Made by a program: the position numbers and the translations under genes
From: Bacteroidales bacterium
GTDB lineage: Bacteria > Bacteroidota > Bacteroidia > Bacteroidales > JAEINX01
Length of the DNA stretch: 42,615 nt
Direction: 5' to 3'
NCBI GenBank assembly: GCA_016342645.1
Contig: JAEINX010000025.1
Span: forward strand, 1-42,615
Part shown: positions 30,209-39,667 of the stretch, in pieces
Numbering within the stretch: the first letter of the stretch is position 1
How the letters are laid out: every line of letters begins with the position of its first letter
The notes under the pieces: model-generated
Told to the model about the DNA's origin: nothing
The model's database searches: none
The model's input: only the letters and a program-made list of their open reading frames with translations

Positions 30209-31456
30209 ATGAAAACTTTATCAATTACTTATCTGACTATTTTTATCTTATTAGTTAATAATGTTAAAGCCCAACAACCTCAGGCCATTCATAATATTCA
30301 ATTACAGGAGGGTTATAGTTTGGTATCAACTTATGTTTCACCCGCTGATCCCGACCTGATGGTATTGCTTGATGATTTGCTTGATGACGGAAGCCTTGAA
30401 TTTGTCCGTAACTCCTCAGGACAAATGTTTCATAAGGTAGGATCGGTATGGATTAATAGCATAGGAAACTGGAATACTCAGGAAGGCTACCTGTTTTTTA
30501 TGAACAACACTGCCGGAATTCCAATTGAAGGTGAGCTGTTTGATCCTGTCACACCATTAAGCCTAAATGAAGGCTATCAATTTGCTTCATATTATTATAC
30601 CGAATATATTGATGCATTACAGGCCTGTTCAGGGATACTTGATATTATTGATTTTATCAGAAACAGCGAAGGACAGGTGCTGCGAAAAATCGGCCCGTAC
30701 TGGGTTAATAATATCGGTGATCTCCGATATGGGGAAGGATATCTTATTAAAATGAACGAAGCAGGCGAATTAATTTATTTTAATGATACGATTTTCAATT
30801 GCCCTGCGGCATTTATTGACCCGCGTGACGGGCAGGAATACAATGCCGTTATGATAGGCAGCCAATGCTGGATGGCTGAAAACATTAATACAGGGCAAAA
30901 GATAAACGGTAGCCAAAGCCAGGGCAATAACGGGATAATTGAAAAATTTTGTTATGATAACGATTCCGTGAATTGTGAAATTTACGGAGGTTTGTATCAA
31001 TGGGAAGAAATGATGGATTATACCACAATTGAAGGTTCTCAGGGTATTTGTTTAACAGGATGGCATATAGCGACCGATGAAGAATGGAAACAATTGGAAG
31101 GTGAAGTTGACAGCCAGTACGGATATCCTGATCCCGAATGGGATGAAGGTGGTGACCGAGGTTATGATGCAGGATTGAATTTAAGGTCGGATACCGGATG
31201 GATATTTTATAACGGTACTGACCCTTATGGGTTTGCTGCATTACCGGGTGGAAATTATTCAACATGGAATAACGGAAGTTATTATAATTTAACTCACGGG
31301 GCAATATGGTGGACATCTACTACCCATTATGTCCAATCAACTGCCAAGTACAGGGAATTGTATTGGCCCTTATTTACAGTTTTTCGTTCATCCTCAAATT
31401 TTAATGGCGGATTTTATGCCCGTTGCATTAAGGATCATACTGTGGGATATCACTAA
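30209..31456 (+). CDS. FISUMP-domain secreted protein, first copy
   Basis: A 415-residue protein with a signal peptide ending near VKAQQ. The C-terminal half, from GQEYNAVMIGSQCWMAENI through GGLYQWEEMMDY, GICLTGWHIATDEEWKQLE and FYARCIKD, is the Fibrobacter succinogenes major paralogous (FISUMP) domain, a C-type-lectin-like surface module. The N-terminal half has two copies of a repeat of about 75 residues, at about 30-110 and 112-190, each ending GEGYL or QEGYL after a W-N-IGN/D segment. No T9SS sorting domain is present. Function unknown; it is probably cotranscribed with the peptidase upstream. Confidence 0.85.
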   Translation: MKTLSITYLTIFILLVNNVKAQQPQAIHNIQLQEGYSLVSTYVSPADPDLMVLLDDLLDDGSLEFVRNSSGQMFHKVGSVWINSIGNWNTQEGYLFFMNNTAGIPIEGELFDPVTPLSLNEGYQFASYYYTEYIDALQACSGILDIIDFIRNSEGQVLRKIGPYWVNNIGDLRYGEGYLIKMNEAGELIYFNDTIFNCPAAFIDPRDGQEYNAVMIGSQCWMAENINTGQKINGSQSQGNNGIIEKFCYDNDSVNCEIYGGLYQWEEMMDYTTIEGSQGICLTGWHIATDEEWKQLEGEVDSQYGYPDPEWDEGGDRGYDAGLNLRSDTGWIFYNGTDPYGFAALPGGNYSTWNNGSYYNLTHGAIWWTSTTHYVQSTAKYRELYWPLFTVFRSSSNFNGGFYARCIKDHTVGYH

Positions 31457-31551: not shown

Positions 31552-32784
31552 ATGAGAACTTTCAAAATTATTTGTCTTATGATTTTTAGTATGTTAGTTT
31601 ATCATACTAAAGCACAGCAACCTCCGGCCATTCATAATATTCAATTACAGGAGGGTTACAGCTTTGTATCCACTTATGTTTCACCAGCTGACCCCGGCCT
31701 GATGGTATTGCTTGAGGATCTGCTTGCTGACGGCAGCCTTGAATTTGTCCGAAACTCTGCCGGACAAATGTTTCACAAGGTTGGGCAGGTTTGGGTTAAT
31801 AATATTGGGAACTGGAATACAGATGAAGCTTATTTGTTTTTAATGAACAGTCCTGCCGGGATTACCATTGAAGGTGAATTGTTTGATCCTGCCACACCTT
31901 TAAGCCTAAATGTAGGTTATCAATTTGTTTCGTATTATATTACGGAATATATTGATGCTTTACAGGCCTGTTCCGGGATACTTGATGTTCTTGATTTTAT
32001 CAGAGACAGCGAAGGACAGGTGCTGCGAAAAATCGGCCCATACTGGGTTAATAATATCGGTGATCTCCAATATGGAGAAGGCTATCTAATAAAAATGAAT
32101 GAAGCAGGCGAATTAATTTATTTTGACGATACAACTTTCAATTGCCCAATGGCATTTATTGATCCGCGTGACGGGCAGGAATACAATGCAGTTATGATAG
32201 GCAGCCAATGCTGGATGGCTGAAAACATTAATGCCGGGGAAATTATAAACGGCAGCCAAAGCCAGATCAATAACGGGATAATTGAAAAATTTTGCTATGA
32301 TAACGATTTCGTGAATTGTGAAATTTACGGTGGTTTATATCAATGGAATGAAATGATGGATTATACCACAATTGAAGGTGTTCAGGGCATTTGTTTAACA
32401 GGATGGCATTTACCTACCGATGAGGAATGGAAACAATTAGAAGGAGAAGTTGACAGCCAATACGGATACCCCGACCCTGAATGGGATTATCCGGGAGACA
32501 GAGGTTTTGATGCAGGATTGAATTTAAGGTCGGATACCGGTTGGATATTTTATAATGGTACTGATCCTTATGAGTTTGCTGCATTACCGGGTGGAAATTA
32601 TTCAACATGGAATAACGGAAGCTATTACAATTTGACTCACGGTACAAAATGGTGGACATCTACTATCCATTATGTTCAATCAAGTGCTGGGTATAGGGAA
32701 TTGTATTGGCCTTTATTTACGGTTTTTCGTTCAAATTTAAATTGTGATTATGGATTAAGTGTTCGATGTATTAAGGATCAGTAA
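31552..32784 (+). CDS. FISUMP-domain secreted protein, second copy
   Basis: A 410-residue close paralog of the preceding gene, with near-identical runs such as QEYNAVMIGSQCWMAENIN and LNLRSDTGWIFYNGTDPY. It shares the signal peptide, the two-copy N-terminal repeat and the C-terminal FISUMP domain. Differences cluster in the loop region before the final RCIKD (NLNCDYGLSV replaces NFNGGFYA) and in a few loops. The high nucleotide similarity over most of the gene points to a recent tandem duplication. It converges with the acyltransferase gene, whose end is only 3 bases away. Confidence 0.85.
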   Translation: MRTFKIICLMIFSMLVYHTKAQQPPAIHNIQLQEGYSFVSTYVSPADPGLMVLLEDLLADGSLEFVRNSAGQMFHKVGQVWVNNIGNWNTDEAYLFLMNSPAGITIEGELFDPATPLSLNVGYQFVSYYITEYIDALQACSGILDVLDFIRDSEGQVLRKIGPYWVNNIGDLQYGEGYLIKMNEAGELIYFDDTTFNCPMAFIDPRDGQEYNAVMIGSQCWMAENINAGEIINGSQSQINNGIIEKFCYDNDFVNCEIYGGLYQWNEMMDYTTIEGVQGICLTGWHLPTDEEWKQLEGEVDSQYGYPDPEWDYPGDRGFDAGLNLRSDTGWIFYNGTDPYEFAALPGGNYSTWNNGSYYNLTHGTKWWTSTIHYVQSSAGYRELYWPLFTVFRSNLNCDYGLSVRCIKDQ

Positions 32785-34228: not shown

Positions 34229-34924
34229 TTAGCCCAACAATGAAATTTGTTCTAAATTTTTCAGATCAATAATTTCAATAGTTTTTCCGAAGATGTTGAT
34301 GATCTTGTCCTTACGAAATTCAGAAAATGTACGGATTACGTTTTCTGTACTCATATTTATATATTCACCAATTTCTTTTCTGGAAACCGGCAAATCAAAA
34401 ACTAAATTATTATAAATTTCTTTGGCAAAGTAAAGTAAGATAAAAGCAACTCGACCATTTAGATTTCTTTGCTTAAGTTCAAGCGATTGTAATATTATTC
34501 TATCGGTATTTTTGCTCATTTTTTGAATTAGGTCTAAGGCAAATTTTCCATTTTCCAAAATGAGTTTTCTTATTTCACTAAGCTTTATATTACAAGTTAC
34601 CGAATCCTCAATGGCTGAAACTGAATAATTATATTTGGTTTCAGAAAAAACGCTAAATAAGCTTATAAAATCAAAGAGCTTGGTGATATTAATTATTTGG
34701 TCTTTTTTGGTAGATAGGTTACGGTGCAATTTAACCATGCCACTTTTTAAGTAAATAAAATTCGTAATTTCATCTCCTTCTTTTAATATTATTTCTCCCT
34801 TTTTAAAAGACTTTTCAATTTTAATTCTACAAATTCTTTCAATTTCATAAGCTTCAATATTTGAAAAAAACAATGATTTTAATTCACAGCCTTCACAATT
34901 ACATTTTTCATCAGTTTCTTTCAT
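34229..34924 (-). CDS. Crp/Fnr family transcriptional regulator, FNR-like
   Basis: A 231-residue regulator with a cyclic-nucleotide-binding-type sensor domain (about 25-140) and a C-terminal winged helix (about 150-215). The N-terminus has clustered cysteines C8, C10 and C13; a further C111 lies in the effector domain. Three N-terminal cysteines plus one central cysteine is the layout of the oxygen-sensing [4Fe-4S] cluster of FNR, although spacing here is tighter. In the recognition helix (STENVIRTFSEF) E194 and R198 are four apart as in CRP E181/R185, which read a TGA...TCA core. Matching near-palindromes lie upstream. It is transcribed away from the sulfide oxidation operon and is its likely regulator. 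Confidence 0.88.
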   Translation of the reverse strand: MKETDEKCNCEGCELKSLFFSNIEAYEIERICRIKIEKSFKKGEIILKEGDEITNFIYLKSGMVKLHRNLSTKKDQIINITKLFDFISLFSVFSETKYNYSVSAIEDSVTCNIKLSEIRKLILENGKFALDLIQKMSKNTDRIILQSLELKQRNLNGRVAFILLYFAKEIYNNLVFDLPVSRKEIGEYINMSTENVIRTFSEFRKDKIINIFGKTIEIIDLKNLEQISLLG

Positions 34925-35055: not shown

Positions 35056-35071
35056 TATGACAATTATCATA
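35056..35071. promoter_or_regulatory. CRP/FNR-type operator, copy 1
   Basis: TATGACAATTATCATA. It is palindromic except for one mismatched pair (positions 6 and 11) and is the exact reverse complement of copy 2. The core TGA-N6-TCA matches CRP/FNR-family sites. Binding by the adjacent regulator is inferred. Confidence 0.6.
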
Positions 35072-35211: not shown

Positions 35212-35227
35212 TATGATAATTGTCATA
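35212..35227. promoter_or_regulatory. CRP/FNR-type operator, copy 2
   Basis: TATGATAATTGTCATA, the exact reverse complement of 35056-35071. It is centred about 55 bases before the presumed transcription start of the sqr operon, a position typical of activator sites. No -33 element is visible, consistent with a promoter that needs an activator. Confidence 0.65.
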
Positions 35228-35316: not shown

Positions 35317-36558
35317 ATGAAAAGATTATTAATAATTGGAGGTGGAACTGCCGGAACAATGATGGCAAACAAATTAAGAAAAGCTTTAGATAAAAACGAA
35401 TGGGAAATTACTATTGTTGATAAACATAAAACGCATTATTATCAACCCGGGTTTTTGTTTATTCCTTTTGGAATTTACTCAAAAGATGATGTTCAAAAAC
35501 CAAAAAGTGATTTTTTCCCAACCGGAGTAAAAGTTATTTATTCGGATGTTGACAAAATTGATGGTGAAAACAACAAAGTCCTTCTTCAGGGTGGGCAAGT
35601 TCTTAAATATGATTTTCTGATAATTGCAAGCGGAGCTAAAACCAATATTGATGAAACTCCCGGACTAAATGGTAAATTGTGGAAAAAAAGCATTTTCGAT
35701 TTTTATACAATTGAAGGAGCAGTTGCCTTAAGTAATTTCTTTAAAACATGGGAAGGAGGCAAGCTGGTTATGGCAATTTCCGAAATTCCTTTTAAATGCC
35801 CTGTTGCTCCAATTGAATTTATTTGTTTGGCTGATGCATATTTTACGAAAAAAGGAATTCGTGATAAAGTTGAACTTAGTCTTGTAACTCCAATGTCGGG
35901 AGCTTTTACAAAACCAATTGCAACCAAAATGTTAAGTGAACTTCTTTCTGAAAAGAATATTAAAGTTATTCCTGATTTTTATATTGAACGCATTGATAAT
36001 GAAAACAAAACTCTTGTTTCTTATGATGAAATGGAAGTACCTTTCGATGTTTTAACAATTGTTCCTGTCAACACCGGCGATGAAATGATTGCCCGAAGTG
36101 GGTTGGGAGACGATATGAATTTCATCCCAACAAATATGCACACCTTGCAATCTGACAAATTTGAAAACATTTTTGTTATTGGAGATGCTGCCAACATTCC
36201 AACTTCAAAAGCCGGTTCGGTTGCACATTTTGCAGCCGATGTTTTATATGAAAATTTGTTGAATGCCATCGAAGGGAGGCCATTAACTGCAAAATTTGAC
36301 GGGCATGCAAATTGCTATATCGAAACCGGTTTCGGAAAAGGTGCTTTAATTGATTTTAATTATGAAACCGAACCTTTGCCCGGAACATATCCTTTGCCCG
36401 GAATCGGGCCTTTTGGTTTGTTGAAAAACACTAAGATGAATCATTACGGAAAAATACTTTTTCGATGGATTTATTGGCATATTCTTTTGAAGGGAAAGGA
36501 ATTGCCTATTGAGGCCGAAATGACAATGGCCGGAAAGAAAAAAGAATATTTACAATAA
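35317..36558 (+). CDS. sqr: Sulfide:quinone oxidoreductase-like flavoprotein
   Basis: A 413-residue FAD protein of the SQR/NDH-2 superfamily that should oxidise sulfide to sulfane sulfur and reduce quinone at the inner membrane. FAD-binding GGGTAG is at 8-13 and the second motif IFVIGDAANIPTSKAGS at about 285-301. C161 (FKCPVAP) and C333 (ANCYIE) sit where the two redox-active cysteines of SQRs occur; C170 is a third. The C-terminal part NHYGKILFRWIYWHILLKG (375-393) is an amphipathic/hydrophobic helix fitting membrane attachment. It begins a five-gene operon with sulfur-carrier genes, which supports a sulfide role over NADH dehydrogenase. Confidence 0.85.
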   Translation: MKRLLIIGGGTAGTMMANKLRKALDKNEWEITIVDKHKTHYYQPGFLFIPFGIYSKDDVQKPKSDFFPTGVKVIYSDVDKIDGENNKVLLQGGQVLKYDFLIIASGAKTNIDETPGLNGKLWKKSIFDFYTIEGAVALSNFFKTWEGGKLVMAISEIPFKCPVAPIEFICLADAYFTKKGIRDKVELSLVTPMSGAFTKPIATKMLSELLSEKNIKVIPDFYIERIDNENKTLVSYDEMEVPFDVLTIVPVNTGDEMIARSGLGDDMNFIPTNMHTLQSDKFENIFVIGDAANIPTSKAGSVAHFAADVLYENLLNAIEGRPLTAKFDGHANCYIETGFGKGALIDFNYETEPLPGTYPLPGIGPFGLLKNTKMNHYGKILFRWIYWHILLKGKELPIEAEMTMAGKKKEYLQ

Positions 36559-36570
36559 AACAAAACCAAA

Positions 36571-37248
36571 ATGGACGAAAAAAATATTCAAACCCAAATA
36601 AACGAATTAAACAATAAAGTTGATTTAATTTTAGATTATGTTAATCAACAACGGCTTAAATCCGGAGCCGTTGATGATTTAATTTCTGATGTTTCAATCA
36701 TCGGAAAAGATTTATACGATAGCGTAGTTTCTGAACTCGACAACCAATCAGTGGAAATCGACCCCGAGGAACTTCAAATGTTAGGCATAAAGCTTATTAA
36801 AAACATTAAAAATTTTAATACTTTATTAGATTTACTGGAAAGCATTACTGATTTTGCTAAAGATGCTTCACCTATCGTAAATGAAATAATAATTGATTTT
36901 ACAAAGAAAATACATGTCTTCGAGCAAAAAGGATACTTTGAATTTTTTGTTGAAATAAGTAAAGTTTTAGATAATATTATTACAAAACTTTCACCCAAAG
37001 ACATTAAACAACTCTCTGATAATGTTGGTGTAATCTTAGAAATTGTTAAAAACTTTTCTCAACCCGAAATTCTAAATTTAATTAACAACTCTTTAGTAAC
37101 TTTCAATAATGTAGCTAAAGATGACATCCCAAAATATTCGATGTGGAAGTTGTTTAAAGAAATGAGAAGTTCGGAAATGAAGAAAACTTTAGGTTTTGCA
37201 CTCACATTTATTAAGAACTTTTCAAATACAGATAATATAAAAAAATAA
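36571..37248 (+). CDS. DUF1641 domain protein
   Basis: A 225-residue, strongly helical, soluble protein recognised as DUF1641-like, a family of unknown role that often lies next to flavoprotein oxidoreductases of the SQR type. The N-terminus (MDEKNIQTQINELNNKVDLI) is a likely coiled coil, and the conserved core with LLDLLESITDFAKDASPI spans about 85-150. Cysteine is absent, so it cannot carry persulfide; a scaffold or partner role for SQR is more plausible. It starts 12 bases after sqr. Confidence 0.75.
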   Translation: MDEKNIQTQINELNNKVDLILDYVNQQRLKSGAVDDLISDVSIIGKDLYDSVVSELDNQSVEIDPEELQMLGIKLIKNIKNFNTLLDLLESITDFAKDASPIVNEIIIDFTKKIHVFEQKGYFEFFVEISKVLDNIITKLSPKDIKQLSDNVGVILEIVKNFSQPEILNLINNSLVTFNNVAKDDIPKYSMWKLFKEMRSSEMKKTLGFALTFIKNFSNTDNIKK

Positions 37249-37278
37249 ATAATAAAAATCATTAAATAAATTAAAGTC

Positions 37279-37590
37279 ATGGAAGAAAAAACAATAGCTA
37301 ATCAAAACGTAAAATTAACATCCGAAGGATATTTAGTTGACCCTTCGCAATGGAATAAAGAAATTGCAATTGAAATTGCAAAAGAAGAAGGAATTGATCT
37401 AAGTGATCTACATTTTGAAGTCCTTGAGTTTTTAAGAAAAACTCACGAATCGGGAAATACACTTACTATTAGAAAAGTAGGGAAATCAGGAATTGTTGAT
37501 ATTAAAGGATTATATAAATTATTCCCGGGTGGCCCTCTAAAATATTCCTCAAAAATTGCAGGAATTCCTAAACCAAGCAGTTGTGTGTAA
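37279..37590 (+). CDS. tusE: TusE/DsrC-family sulfur carrier
   Basis: A 103-residue DsrC/TusE fold protein: GYLVDPSQWNKEIAIEIAKE at 18-36, then DLHFEVLEFLRKTHES and LFPGGPLKYSSKIAGIPKPS before SCV. The penultimate residue C102 is the carrier cysteine (CysA). The position eleven residues earlier, where DsrC proper has CysB, is S91. It is therefore a single-cysteine TusE/RspA-like version and cannot make the DsrC intramolecular trisulfide. It probably accepts persulfide from SQR or the DsrE2-like neighbour. 30 bases after the DUF1641 gene, 21 bases before dsrE2. Confidence 0.88.
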   Translation: MEEKTIANQNVKLTSEGYLVDPSQWNKEIAIEIAKEEGIDLSDLHFEVLEFLRKTHESGNTLTIRKVGKSGIVDIKGLYKLFPGGPLKYSSKIAGIPKPSSCV

Positions 37591-37611
37591 ATAATTTAAA
37601 AAAATAAAAAA

Positions 37612-38118
37612 ATGAGTACGAATAAAAACGAAAAACCACTAAAAAAAGTGTGCATGATATGTGCAAAAGGTAGCATAGAAGATGTTTATGCCACACTTGT
37701 CATGGGTAATGGGGCTGTTATGGAAGGCATAGAAACTAAATTATTTTTCACATTTTTTGGCCTTGATGCAATCACTAAAAAACAAATGAACAAGCTTCAT
37801 ACAAGCACGGTAGGTAATCCGGCGATGAGAATGCCAGGAGGTTTACCTTTTCCAAGCCTTCTTGGAATATTACCGGGAGTTGAAGCGGGTGTTTCAGCTA
37901 TGATGAAAAAGCAAATGGAGAAATTAGATATGCCTTCGGTAGATGAATTTCTCGAAATGATCACGGCCGGTGGAGGTGAAATATATGCTTGCAAACTTGC
38001 CATGGATATGTTTAAACTAAAAAAAGAAGACCTTCACGAAGAAGTTAAGGCTGTTCTCACTATAGGTGAATTTTATGAAATGGCCGGTGGTGATGGAACA
38101 CAAATTATTTTCACATAA
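37612..38118 (+). CDS. DsrE2-like (DsrE/DsrF/DrsH family) sulfurtransferase
   Basis: A 168-residue protein of the DsrE family. KKVCMICAKGSIEDVYATLV at the N-terminus, FFTFFGLDAI around 45-54 and GGEIYACKLAMDMF around 121-134 match the DsrE2-type group. Cysteines C14, C17 and C127 are present; C127 corresponds to the conserved persulfide-carrying cysteine. A central hydrophobic Gly/Pro/Met-rich stretch (about 70-98) may associate with the membrane. In sulfur oxidisers such proteins pass sulfane sulfur to TusA or DsrC/TusE; the gene order supports transfer between SQR and the TusE-like protein. Confidence 0.85.
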   Translation: MSTNKNEKPLKKVCMICAKGSIEDVYATLVMGNGAVMEGIETKLFFTFFGLDAITKKQMNKLHTSTVGNPAMRMPGGLPFPSLLGILPGVEAGVSAMMKKQMEKLDMPSVDEFLEMITAGGGEIYACKLAMDMFKLKKEDLHEEVKAVLTIGEFYEMAGGDGTQIIFT

Positions 38119-38133
38119 AATTTAATAATAATT

Positions 38134-39603
38134 ATGAAAAAAAAAATCACTTATTACATATCATTAACATTTTTGTTTTTGATATTTTTTCAATTTGCTG
38201 GTGCAACCGATGGATATTTCAGTAATGGTTATGGCACAAAAAACAAAGGATTCGCAGGAGCAGGAATAGCTTACTTGCATTCACCTTTTTCGGCTGCTAT
38301 CAATCCGGCAGGACTGGGATTTCTTAGTAAAAAAATGAGCTTTGAAATAAGCGTCGGTTTATTCAACCCAAACCGGAAATATTCAATTGTTGGCGCCCCC
38401 ACGCCACCCGATCAATGGGGATATATGGGCCCAAACGGATTTGTACATGATCCGAGATTTATGGCATTCGGCTTAACTGAAGGAACTGTCGAAAGCGGAA
38501 GTAAAGTATTTATTATTCCGGCTATAGCTTTTGCTTATAAACTTGATGAGAAAAATACACTTGGCTTAAATTTTTTCGGAAATGGTGGTATGAATACCGA
38601 TTATGATGCCAAATCATATTATAGTTCCATAATTGATGCTTTTGGAAACCCTATGCCTGATGGAAGGCATAATCCGATGGCAAACGTAAGTAAGCCAACC
38701 GGAGTAAATCTTGCACAGATGTTTTTATCATTAACTTATGCACGAAAATTCGGAGAAAATCATAGTTTAGGTATTTCACCTGTTTTTGTATATCAAACTT
38801 TCGAAGCAAAAGGACTTGAAGCATTTCGCGATATGGGAATGGCCGGAAACGCCTTTTTGACTCAAATGATGGGTTGGCCCGATCGTTCTGATTGTGTAAC
38901 AAATAATGGAAAAACCAGTTCAACCGGCTTTGGTTTTCGAATAGGATATCAGGGCGAATTGTTTGATGGTTTCAGGCTTGGTGCTACATTCCAACCACAA
39001 ATTAAAATGAGTAAATTTGATAAATATCAAGGATTATTTGCTGAAGAAGGACGTTTCGATATTCCGGCAAACTGGACAGCAGGAATTTCTTATGAGGTAA
39101 CACCCGATTTAACGGTTTTGTTTGATGTTAAAAGTATTATGTATAGTAAAGTTAAATCAGTCGGTAATACAATGATTGCTTCAGAAATGATGCCGATGAT
39201 ACCGAATTTGAATTCTACTTCACCACAGGATGCTTTTATTCCTAATCCTGATTTTGTACCACTCGGAAACGATGATGCAGCCGGTTTTGGTTGGGAAGAT
39301 ATGATGATTTTTAAATTAGCTGCCGAATACCGTCAGGTAGAGAACTGGCAGTTTCGACTTGGATACTCTTATGGCAAACAACCAATTCCCGAATCGGAAG
39401 TTATGTTTAATATTCTTGCTCCGGCAGTTAACGAAAATCATATTTCTCTTGGTTTAACTCGAATATTGGGCGAACATCAATTGAGTCTTGCAATAACTCA
39501 TGCTTTGTCGAATACAGTTACCGGAACCAATCCATTTGATCCGGCACAACAAATTGAATTAAATATGAACCAATGGGAATTTGACATTGGTTTTACATTT
39601 TAG
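38134..39603 (+). CDS. OmpP1/FadL-family outer-membrane transport protein
   Basis: A 489-residue beta-barrel with a signal peptide (residues 1-24, ending FAGA). ATDGYFSNGYGTKNKGFAGA, AYLHSPFSAAINPAG and the Phe-terminated FDIGFTF end fit the FadL/OmpP1 family of hydrophobic-substrate channels. It is the last gene of the sulfur operon, 15 bases after the DsrE2-like gene and before a strong terminator. It could carry hydrophobic compounds such as elemental sulfur or polysulfide, or quinone-linked lipids. That substrate is speculation from context. Confidence 0.85.
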   Translation: MKKKITYYISLTFLFLIFFQFAGATDGYFSNGYGTKNKGFAGAGIAYLHSPFSAAINPAGLGFLSKKMSFEISVGLFNPNRKYSIVGAPTPPDQWGYMGPNGFVHDPRFMAFGLTEGTVESGSKVFIIPAIAFAYKLDEKNTLGLNFFGNGGMNTDYDAKSYYSSIIDAFGNPMPDGRHNPMANVSKPTGVNLAQMFLSLTYARKFGENHSLGISPVFVYQTFEAKGLEAFRDMGMAGNAFLTQMMGWPDRSDCVTNNGKTSSTGFGFRIGYQGELFDGFRLGATFQPQIKMSKFDKYQGLFAEEGRFDIPANWTAGISYEVTPDLTVLFDVKSIMYSKVKSVGNTMIASEMMPMIPNLNSTSPQDAFIPNPDFVPLGNDDAAGFGWEDMMIFKLAAEYRQVENWQFRLGYSYGKQPIPESEVMFNILAPAVNENHISLGLTRILGEHQLSLAITHALSNTVTGTNPFDPAQQIELNMNQWEFDIGFTF

Positions 39604-39632
39604 TTAATACATTTTTTCAAGCGTTTTTTATG

Positions 39633-39667
39633 GCTGCACTGATCTTTTGATAGTGCAGCTTTTTTTA
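39633..39667 (+). terminator. Rho-independent terminator of the sqr operon
   Basis: GCTGCACT (39633-39640) pairs with AGTGCAGC (39652-39659), with further ATC/GAT pairing in the loop, followed directly by a run of T (39660-39666). It lies 30 bases after the FadL-like stop codon. Confidence 0.85.

Follow-up and report, generated by a model that had tools for sequence, protein, structure and literature searches.

In most accounts, the sulfide:quinone reductase (SQR) releases polysulfide or gives its sulfur to small molecules, and DsrC in the strict sense is defined by two C-terminal cysteines, CysA and CysB. The operon analyzed here lies on contig JAEINX010000025.1 of a Bacteroidales bacterium (assembly GCA_016342645.1; forward strand, 42,615 nucleotides; this whole stretch is referred to as the window, and the genome it comes from as the host), and encodes an SQR of type III together with proteins of the DUF1641, DsrC/TusE, DsrE2 and FadL families. 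Several described systems are close to it. The type III SQR family (NF049943) is tabulated among selenoprotein families with the motif HxxU (PMC13188914). The pathway of cable bacteria consists of a type III SQR, YeeE, TusA, DsrEFH of type II, and DsrC, with DsrAB as the sink (PMC13293266). The ForCE formate dehydrogenase of Bacillus subtilis has a DUF1641 subunit, ForE, co-encoded with a quinone-linked oxidoreductase, and ForE1 is reported as a requirement for formate:menadione activity and, very probably, also for the binding of menaquinone-7 by ForC1 (PMC8808070). Sulfur disproportionators possess the YTD cluster of YedE, TusA, and DsrE (PMC9751629).

The operon in the window overlapped with each of these systems, and differed from all of them. 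Its SQR shared with NF049943 a score over the cut-off, the full length, and the two redox cysteines, but was a cysteine form without an in-frame stop and was co-encoded with its own carrier-family proteins. The type III SQR and a relay of the DsrE/DsrC type were shared with the pathway of cable bacteria; here, in contrast, the carriers were encoded inside the SQR operon, the DsrC-type protein had no CysB, no dsrA was found, and neither TusA nor DsrEFH was present in the operon. In one family of the phylum (f76; Chlorobiaceae-like, and probably green sulfur bacteria), an SQR of the same family occurred, and dsrC lay at a distance of approximately 1.7 kb in each of three loci read; this DsrC, however, had both cysteines, dsrA was found, and neither a DsrE2-like nor a DUF1641 match adjoined. 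A locus of YedE, TusA, DsrE, rhodanese, and Hdr/Qmo-like genes, comparable to the YTD cluster, was found in the host genome, but outside the operon. The partner of DUF1641 was an SQR, not a molybdenum enzyme as in ForCE, and the kinship with ForE1 was distant.

From these families we infer, with fair though far from full confidence, that the type III SQR would oxidize sulfide, that the electrons would go to menaquinone with the aid of the ForE-like DUF1641 protein, and that the sulfane sulfur would be handed to two proteins of the same operon, one DsrE2-like and the other a DsrC/TusE-like protein with one cysteine, not released as polysulfide. The reaction, the menaquinone partner, the direction, and the order of the carriers are all read from family membership; the putative sulfur route would run from C161/C333 of SQR via C127 of the DsrE2-like protein to C102 of the DsrC/TusE-like protein. 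Since neither carrier started with a signal-peptide-like stretch (judged by eye), the active site of SQR would face the cytoplasm.

The operon consisted of five reading frames, all on the + strand at 35317-39603, with spacers of 12, 30, 21, and 15 bases; coordinates and spacers agreed with the compact layout first described. The flavoprotein (35317-36558), originally called sqr-like, scored 642 bits against the NF049943 cut-off of 525, spanning model positions 1-406 of 406, and its best solved relatives were human SQOR chains (residues 4-393, E 4e-41). In this alignment KCPVAP faced KCAGAP (C161), and HANC faced the second SQOR cysteine (C333); each of the two cysteines was kept in all 52 rows reaching the site in a 53-row alignment. 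Because HANC was the only HxxC in the window SQR, C333 probably occupies the selenocysteine place of other NF049943 members. No in-frame stop was found in the window gene, so that the selenocysteine of the named subtype was absent and a cysteine stood at the probable HxxU place. By family, with both redox cysteines conserved, the operon flavoprotein is a type III SQR. After the operon, a terminator-like element was present at 39632-39667 (+ strand), its hairpin (39632-39660) being followed by a U run that reached 39667. This structure had a folding energy of -18.2 kcal/mol with a z of -2.67, and 3 of 200 shuffles were equally good, in agreement with the terminator proposed originally, though a simple consensus scan omitted it.

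Conservation of the gene order beyond this strain, which the original prediction had set as its own refutation test, was found for four genes. Two sets of loci were used. The named set came from a scan of named genomes, covering close relatives only, and gave 52 loci, many of them short: by title, one from Aminicenantes, one from Rhodohalobacter, and 50 from Bacteroidota or its subgroups. Enough downstream sequence was available in 44 of them, the other eight running off the contig. The second set comprised 27 loci, nine of the host's order and 18 from a phylum sample. In the core order SQR-(DUF1641)-DsrC/TusE-DsrE2, the genes for both DsrC and DsrE2 followed in 44/44 named loci with room, and DsrE2 followed DsrC in 26/26 loci with room in the second set. 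The phylum sample contained 198 genomes, 54 of which had an SQR over the cut-off, and 35 of these belonged to f76 and were set aside. Outside f76, a DsrC-family gene lay right downstream of SQR in all 19 genomes (directly in 13, and with a DUF1641-sized gap in six), and the DsrC-family gene was found in 20 sampled genomes: these 19 SQR-bearing ones and G219. The latter (G219:C73:23294-23581) was the sole sampled genome outside f76 in which a DsrC-family gene occurred while no type III SQR reached the cut-off. The gene set is common to many Bacteroidota. In some Flavobacteriaceae (L021:1998-7624 and L023:338-4419), molybdopterin oxidoreductase, ferredoxin, and NrfD subunits were encoded near the operon, and the same neighbourhoods contained a split YedE transporter and rhodaneses (by family search in L021 and by clustering in L023).

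The third gene (37279-37590, + strand) encoded a member of the DsrC/TusE family (PF04358: 92.8 bits, cut-off 24.9), in which C102 was the penultimate residue, and the fourth (37612-38118, + strand) a DsrE2-like protein with C127 (PF13686, DrsE_2: 92.7 bits, cut-off 25); both cysteines were located where the original prediction had placed them. The penultimate cysteine was found in 45 of 46 named rows and in 27/27 rows of the other set, whereas a cysteine at the CysB place was found in only 4/46 and 0/27, respectively, with serine in the window. A DsrC in the strict sense was rejected on this serine and because none of the operon genomes had a dsrA that passed the cut-off (see below). In a tree of DsrC-type proteins (50 rows, including every second operon row among those at hand), the 12 two-cysteine DsrCs were set apart by a branch supported at 96/84; the second, two-cysteine DsrC of the host was on a long branch, which calls for caution. 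In the DsrE2-like protein, C127 was kept in 45/45 rows and C17 in 41/45. The proposal of sulfide oxidation with a hand-off to DsrE- and TusE-type carriers was therefore borne out as far as the SQR cysteines and two persulfide-carrier families go; the membership of FadL and DUF1641 in a fixed set was not supported as stated.

The second gene (36571-37248, + strand) encoded a DUF1641 protein (PF07849: 24.0 bits, cut-off 21). A profile of 33 operon DUF1641 relatives matched the Bacillus ForE1 chain 8rqz with an E value of 3.3e-4 (profile positions 104-221), and from this distant relationship we consider it likely that the DUF1641 protein docks SQR to menaquinone. The gene was present in 41 of 44 named loci with room (missing in L048, L051, and L053) and in 14/27 of the second set; its place in the operon, as originally described, is thus real but optional.

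On the final sulfur acceptor, which the original prediction had left open, several candidate loci were found in the host outside the window. The absence of a dsr sulfite reductase, seen before in the window, extended to the genome level for dsrA: no match at E <= 1e-3 was obtained in the host genome (93.5% complete), and no match over the cut-off in any of the 28 operon genomes, against 3/3 positive controls in f76, no dsrB-specific model being used. The canonical Dsr pathway was rejected on these grounds. On the other hand, AprA was found in the host (892.8 bits) on a contig of 3,993 bases (C169; L145:1-3993), which also carried the tail of AprB and a QmoA-like gene, and the order aprB-aprA-qmoA-qmoB-qmoC was found in two genomes from other families of the host's order, G007 (L149:4622-11415) and G014 (L150:2-6836). 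In G007, AprB scored 195.7 bits (cut-off 135.65) and QmoC 360.2 bits (cut-off 300), qmoA and qmoB being named by order and HdrA-like matches, and the genes of G014 by likeness to those of G007. Contamination as the source of the host apr contig is less likely, because the aprB-aprA-qmoA order recurred, with 75-79% AprA identity, in these two genomes, where the contigs concerned were 115 kb and 25 kb long, and because the tetranucleotide distance of the host apr contig was inside the range of other genome pieces; its G+C content was 38.5%, against 33% for the genome. In the host and these two families, sulfur might be converted to sulfite by some enzyme, and then to APS via AprBA-Qmo. No sulfite-forming step was found in the host, dsrB and sat being outside the search. 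No aprA match was found in the other 25 of the 28 operon genomes, and the end use of sulfur there must therefore differ. As a separate observation, apr-qmo loci in genomes of this order without any dsrA match may belong to sulfite oxidizers or to an unusual sulfate pathway.

Two further host loci contained sulfur-related genes. The YTD-like locus on contig C6 (L007:5164-15936) encoded a CRP-type regulator, TusA, YedE, three rhodaneses, DsrE, a DsrE2-like protein, a second TusA, and a VhuD-like protein, together with two HdrA-like proteins and a QmoC-like one (212.5 bits, cut-off 300). Contig C178 (L006:9367-11805) carried the two-cysteine DsrC with TmcC/HmcE-like and DsrK/HmcF/TmcB-like genes, the latter two each below the equivalog cut-off.

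Regulatory features, which were additions to the original prediction, were found upstream. A gene for a CRP/FNR-family regulator (34229-34924, - strand; family searches and neighbour comparison) was divergently transcribed from the operon, and a pattern scan gave two operator-like palindromes in between: TGACAATTATCA at 35058-35069 (TGA-N6-TCA, CRP/FNR type) and TGATAATTGTCA at 35214-35225. Upstream sequence was available for 49 named loci, and in 23 of them the pattern TGAYA-N2-TRTCA, derived from these two sites, matched between -250 and +40 of the SQR start. Altogether, 13.9 kb of such regions contained 29 sites, compared with nine in 578 kb elsewhere in the loci and a mean of 0.11 (maximum 2) in shuffled upstream regions, the loci being mutually related and not independent trials. 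In the second set, the pattern occurred within 250 bases in 10/27 loci. The regulator was adjacent and divergent in 14/52 named loci and in 7/9 loci of the same order; of the remaining two, L119 had no regulator that could be found and L120 ended before the gene. C10, C13, and C111 of the regulator were present in 15/15 divergent copies (the window and the 14 named loci) and in 0/12 non-divergent CRP genes, which suggests that the divergent regulator may sense redox state or persulfide. Another site, ATGATTCATATCAT, a looser form of TGA-N6-TCA, was found at L007:5911 on host contig C6, between another CRP gene and the TusA-led sulfur locus, hinting that the operon and this locus may share a regulon. 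In a Marinifilum genome (L033:15001-16414), a second CRP gene was divergent from a second DsrE2-like gene, approximately 5 kb past the operon.

The fifth gene (38134-39603, + strand) encoded a FadL-family outer-membrane barrel (PF03349: 70.7 bits, cut-off 29.7), which may pass hydrophobic sulfur or another hydrophobic compound across the outer membrane, a step weaker than all others in the proposed mechanism. A FadL fatty-acid transporter in the narrow sense was rejected (18.3 bits against the NF007988 cut-off of 585). FadL had originally been counted in a set of five genes, and this did not hold: no FadL-family match was found in the 52 named loci, many of them short, and FadL as a fixed fifth member was rejected. 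Among the nine other loci of the host's order, two of them short, none had FadL nearby, the window alone having it. In the 28 operon genomes, PF03349 was found within 5 kb of SQR in six: the host, G106, G124, G162, G193, and G247. The five of 27 genomes other than the host compare with 0.19 expected from 59 PF03349 stretches in 108.7 Mb (P about 1.6e-6), with the 5-kb limit chosen after the hits were visible and G106 and G247 belonging to one family. The association recurs, and the gene is optional. These counts bear in both directions on the alternative that this one lineage carries the FadL-family gene as a passenger unrelated to sulfur. Its absence from the named and same-order loci speaks for a passenger, as do the low identity (21-41%) of the FadL-family proteins near other operons to that of the window and their varied position (14 bases upstream, divergent, or downstream with or without one other gene in between); a literature search on FadL, elemental sulfur, and the outer membrane gave no link between FadL and sulfur transport in the portions of text available. 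The excess over expectation and the 15-base spacer, which places the window gene inside the operon, speak against it. We give the passenger explanation a little less than even weight.

Several points weigh against the proposed transfer of sulfide sulfur to co-encoded carriers. In cable bacteria, the type III SQR is presumed to face the periplasm (PMC13293266), and an SQR with this orientation could not hand sulfur directly to cytoplasmic carriers. The carrier function is taken from family membership, because both proteins scored below the equivalog cut-offs: 98.5 against 210 bits for DsrE2 (NF047629), and 65.6 against 191 bits for TusE (NF008562), so that a TusE orthologue was rejected. One of the 46 named rows lacked the penultimate cysteine. 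DUF1641 was missing in 13/27 loci of the second set, so that the reaction as a rule cannot depend on it, and its predicted structure was all helical at low confidence (pLDDT 62, pTM 0.20). The strict operator pattern was missing in 26/49 named loci. Weak dsrA matches under the cut-off occurred in G158, G193, and G247, and also in 8/14 control genomes. A heme-copper oxidase that could serve as the electron sink was not detected in the host, cytochrome bd being outside the search. YedE was rejected as a general partner, since it was present in 12/19 operon genomes and 95/179 others of the phylum sample and hardly tracked the operon, a point of difference from the YTD cluster.

The explanation by sulfide detoxification or sulfur assimilation, in which SQR would clear toxic sulfide and the carriers would provide sulfur to thiolate tRNA or cofactors, or would discard it, without energy metabolism, deserves attention, and yet we consider it improbable by a clear measure. 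E. coli TusE serves tRNA thiolation, and the likeness of the DsrC/TusE-family protein to TusE, together with the lack of aprA in 25/28 operon genomes and of dsrA over the cut-off in all 28, would fit this function; the failure of the same protein to reach the TusE equivalog cut-off would not, and the rhodaneses, split YedE, and molybdopterin/NrfD set near the operon in some Flavobacteriaceae look dissimilatory. The reverse pathway, namely reduction of sulfur or polysulfide to sulfide with electrons from menaquinol and sulfane sulfur from the carriers, appears very unlikely: the lack of a detectable heme-copper oxidase makes an anaerobic host possible, and an NrfD-type oxidoreductase set lay near one scanned copy (L021), but both redox cysteines are retained and characterised SQRs run in the oxidative direction. 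A type II NADH dehydrogenase, or some other disulfide reductase, can practically be dismissed as the identity of the flavoprotein, since NADH oxidases and CoA-disulfide reductases gave weaker matches, against a score far over the SQR cut-off and a near full-length top match to SQOR with both cysteines.

Elsewhere in the window, two tandem proteins of approximately 410 residues (30209-31456 and 31552-32784) were closely similar by eye, and part of this module seemed to be repeated on host contigs (L006:6677-8980, L006:16824-18068, and L146:714-3539).

Sulfide oxidation by SQR with transfer to its own carriers may be extended to a wider scheme of DsrAB-free sulfide use in Bacteroidota: an SQR facing the cytoplasm, with menaquinone coupling of the ForE type, its own pair of carriers taking the sulfur directly, and a dedicated FNR-like cysteine regulator, leading in some members via a sulfite-forming step and AprBA-Qmo to sulfate, and with a FadL-type pore for hydrophobic sulfur in the outer membrane. 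Taken as a whole, this scheme is speculative and rather doubtful. No report of the SQR-DUF1641-DsrC/TusE-DsrE2 set was found in the literature searched, most subscription journals lying outside its coverage, and no paper was found there joining DUF1641 with sulfide quinone oxidoreductase, or type III sulfide quinone with Bacteroidetes. If the transfer from SQR to the co-encoded carriers is true, an SQR with its own persulfide carriers and no dsrAB, in a common and large phylum, would change who counts as a sulfide oxidizer, and a DsrC-family gene alone would be no marker of the Dsr pathway. DUF1641 would gain a second respiratory partner, and the direct transfer of sulfur from SQR to protein would become testable.

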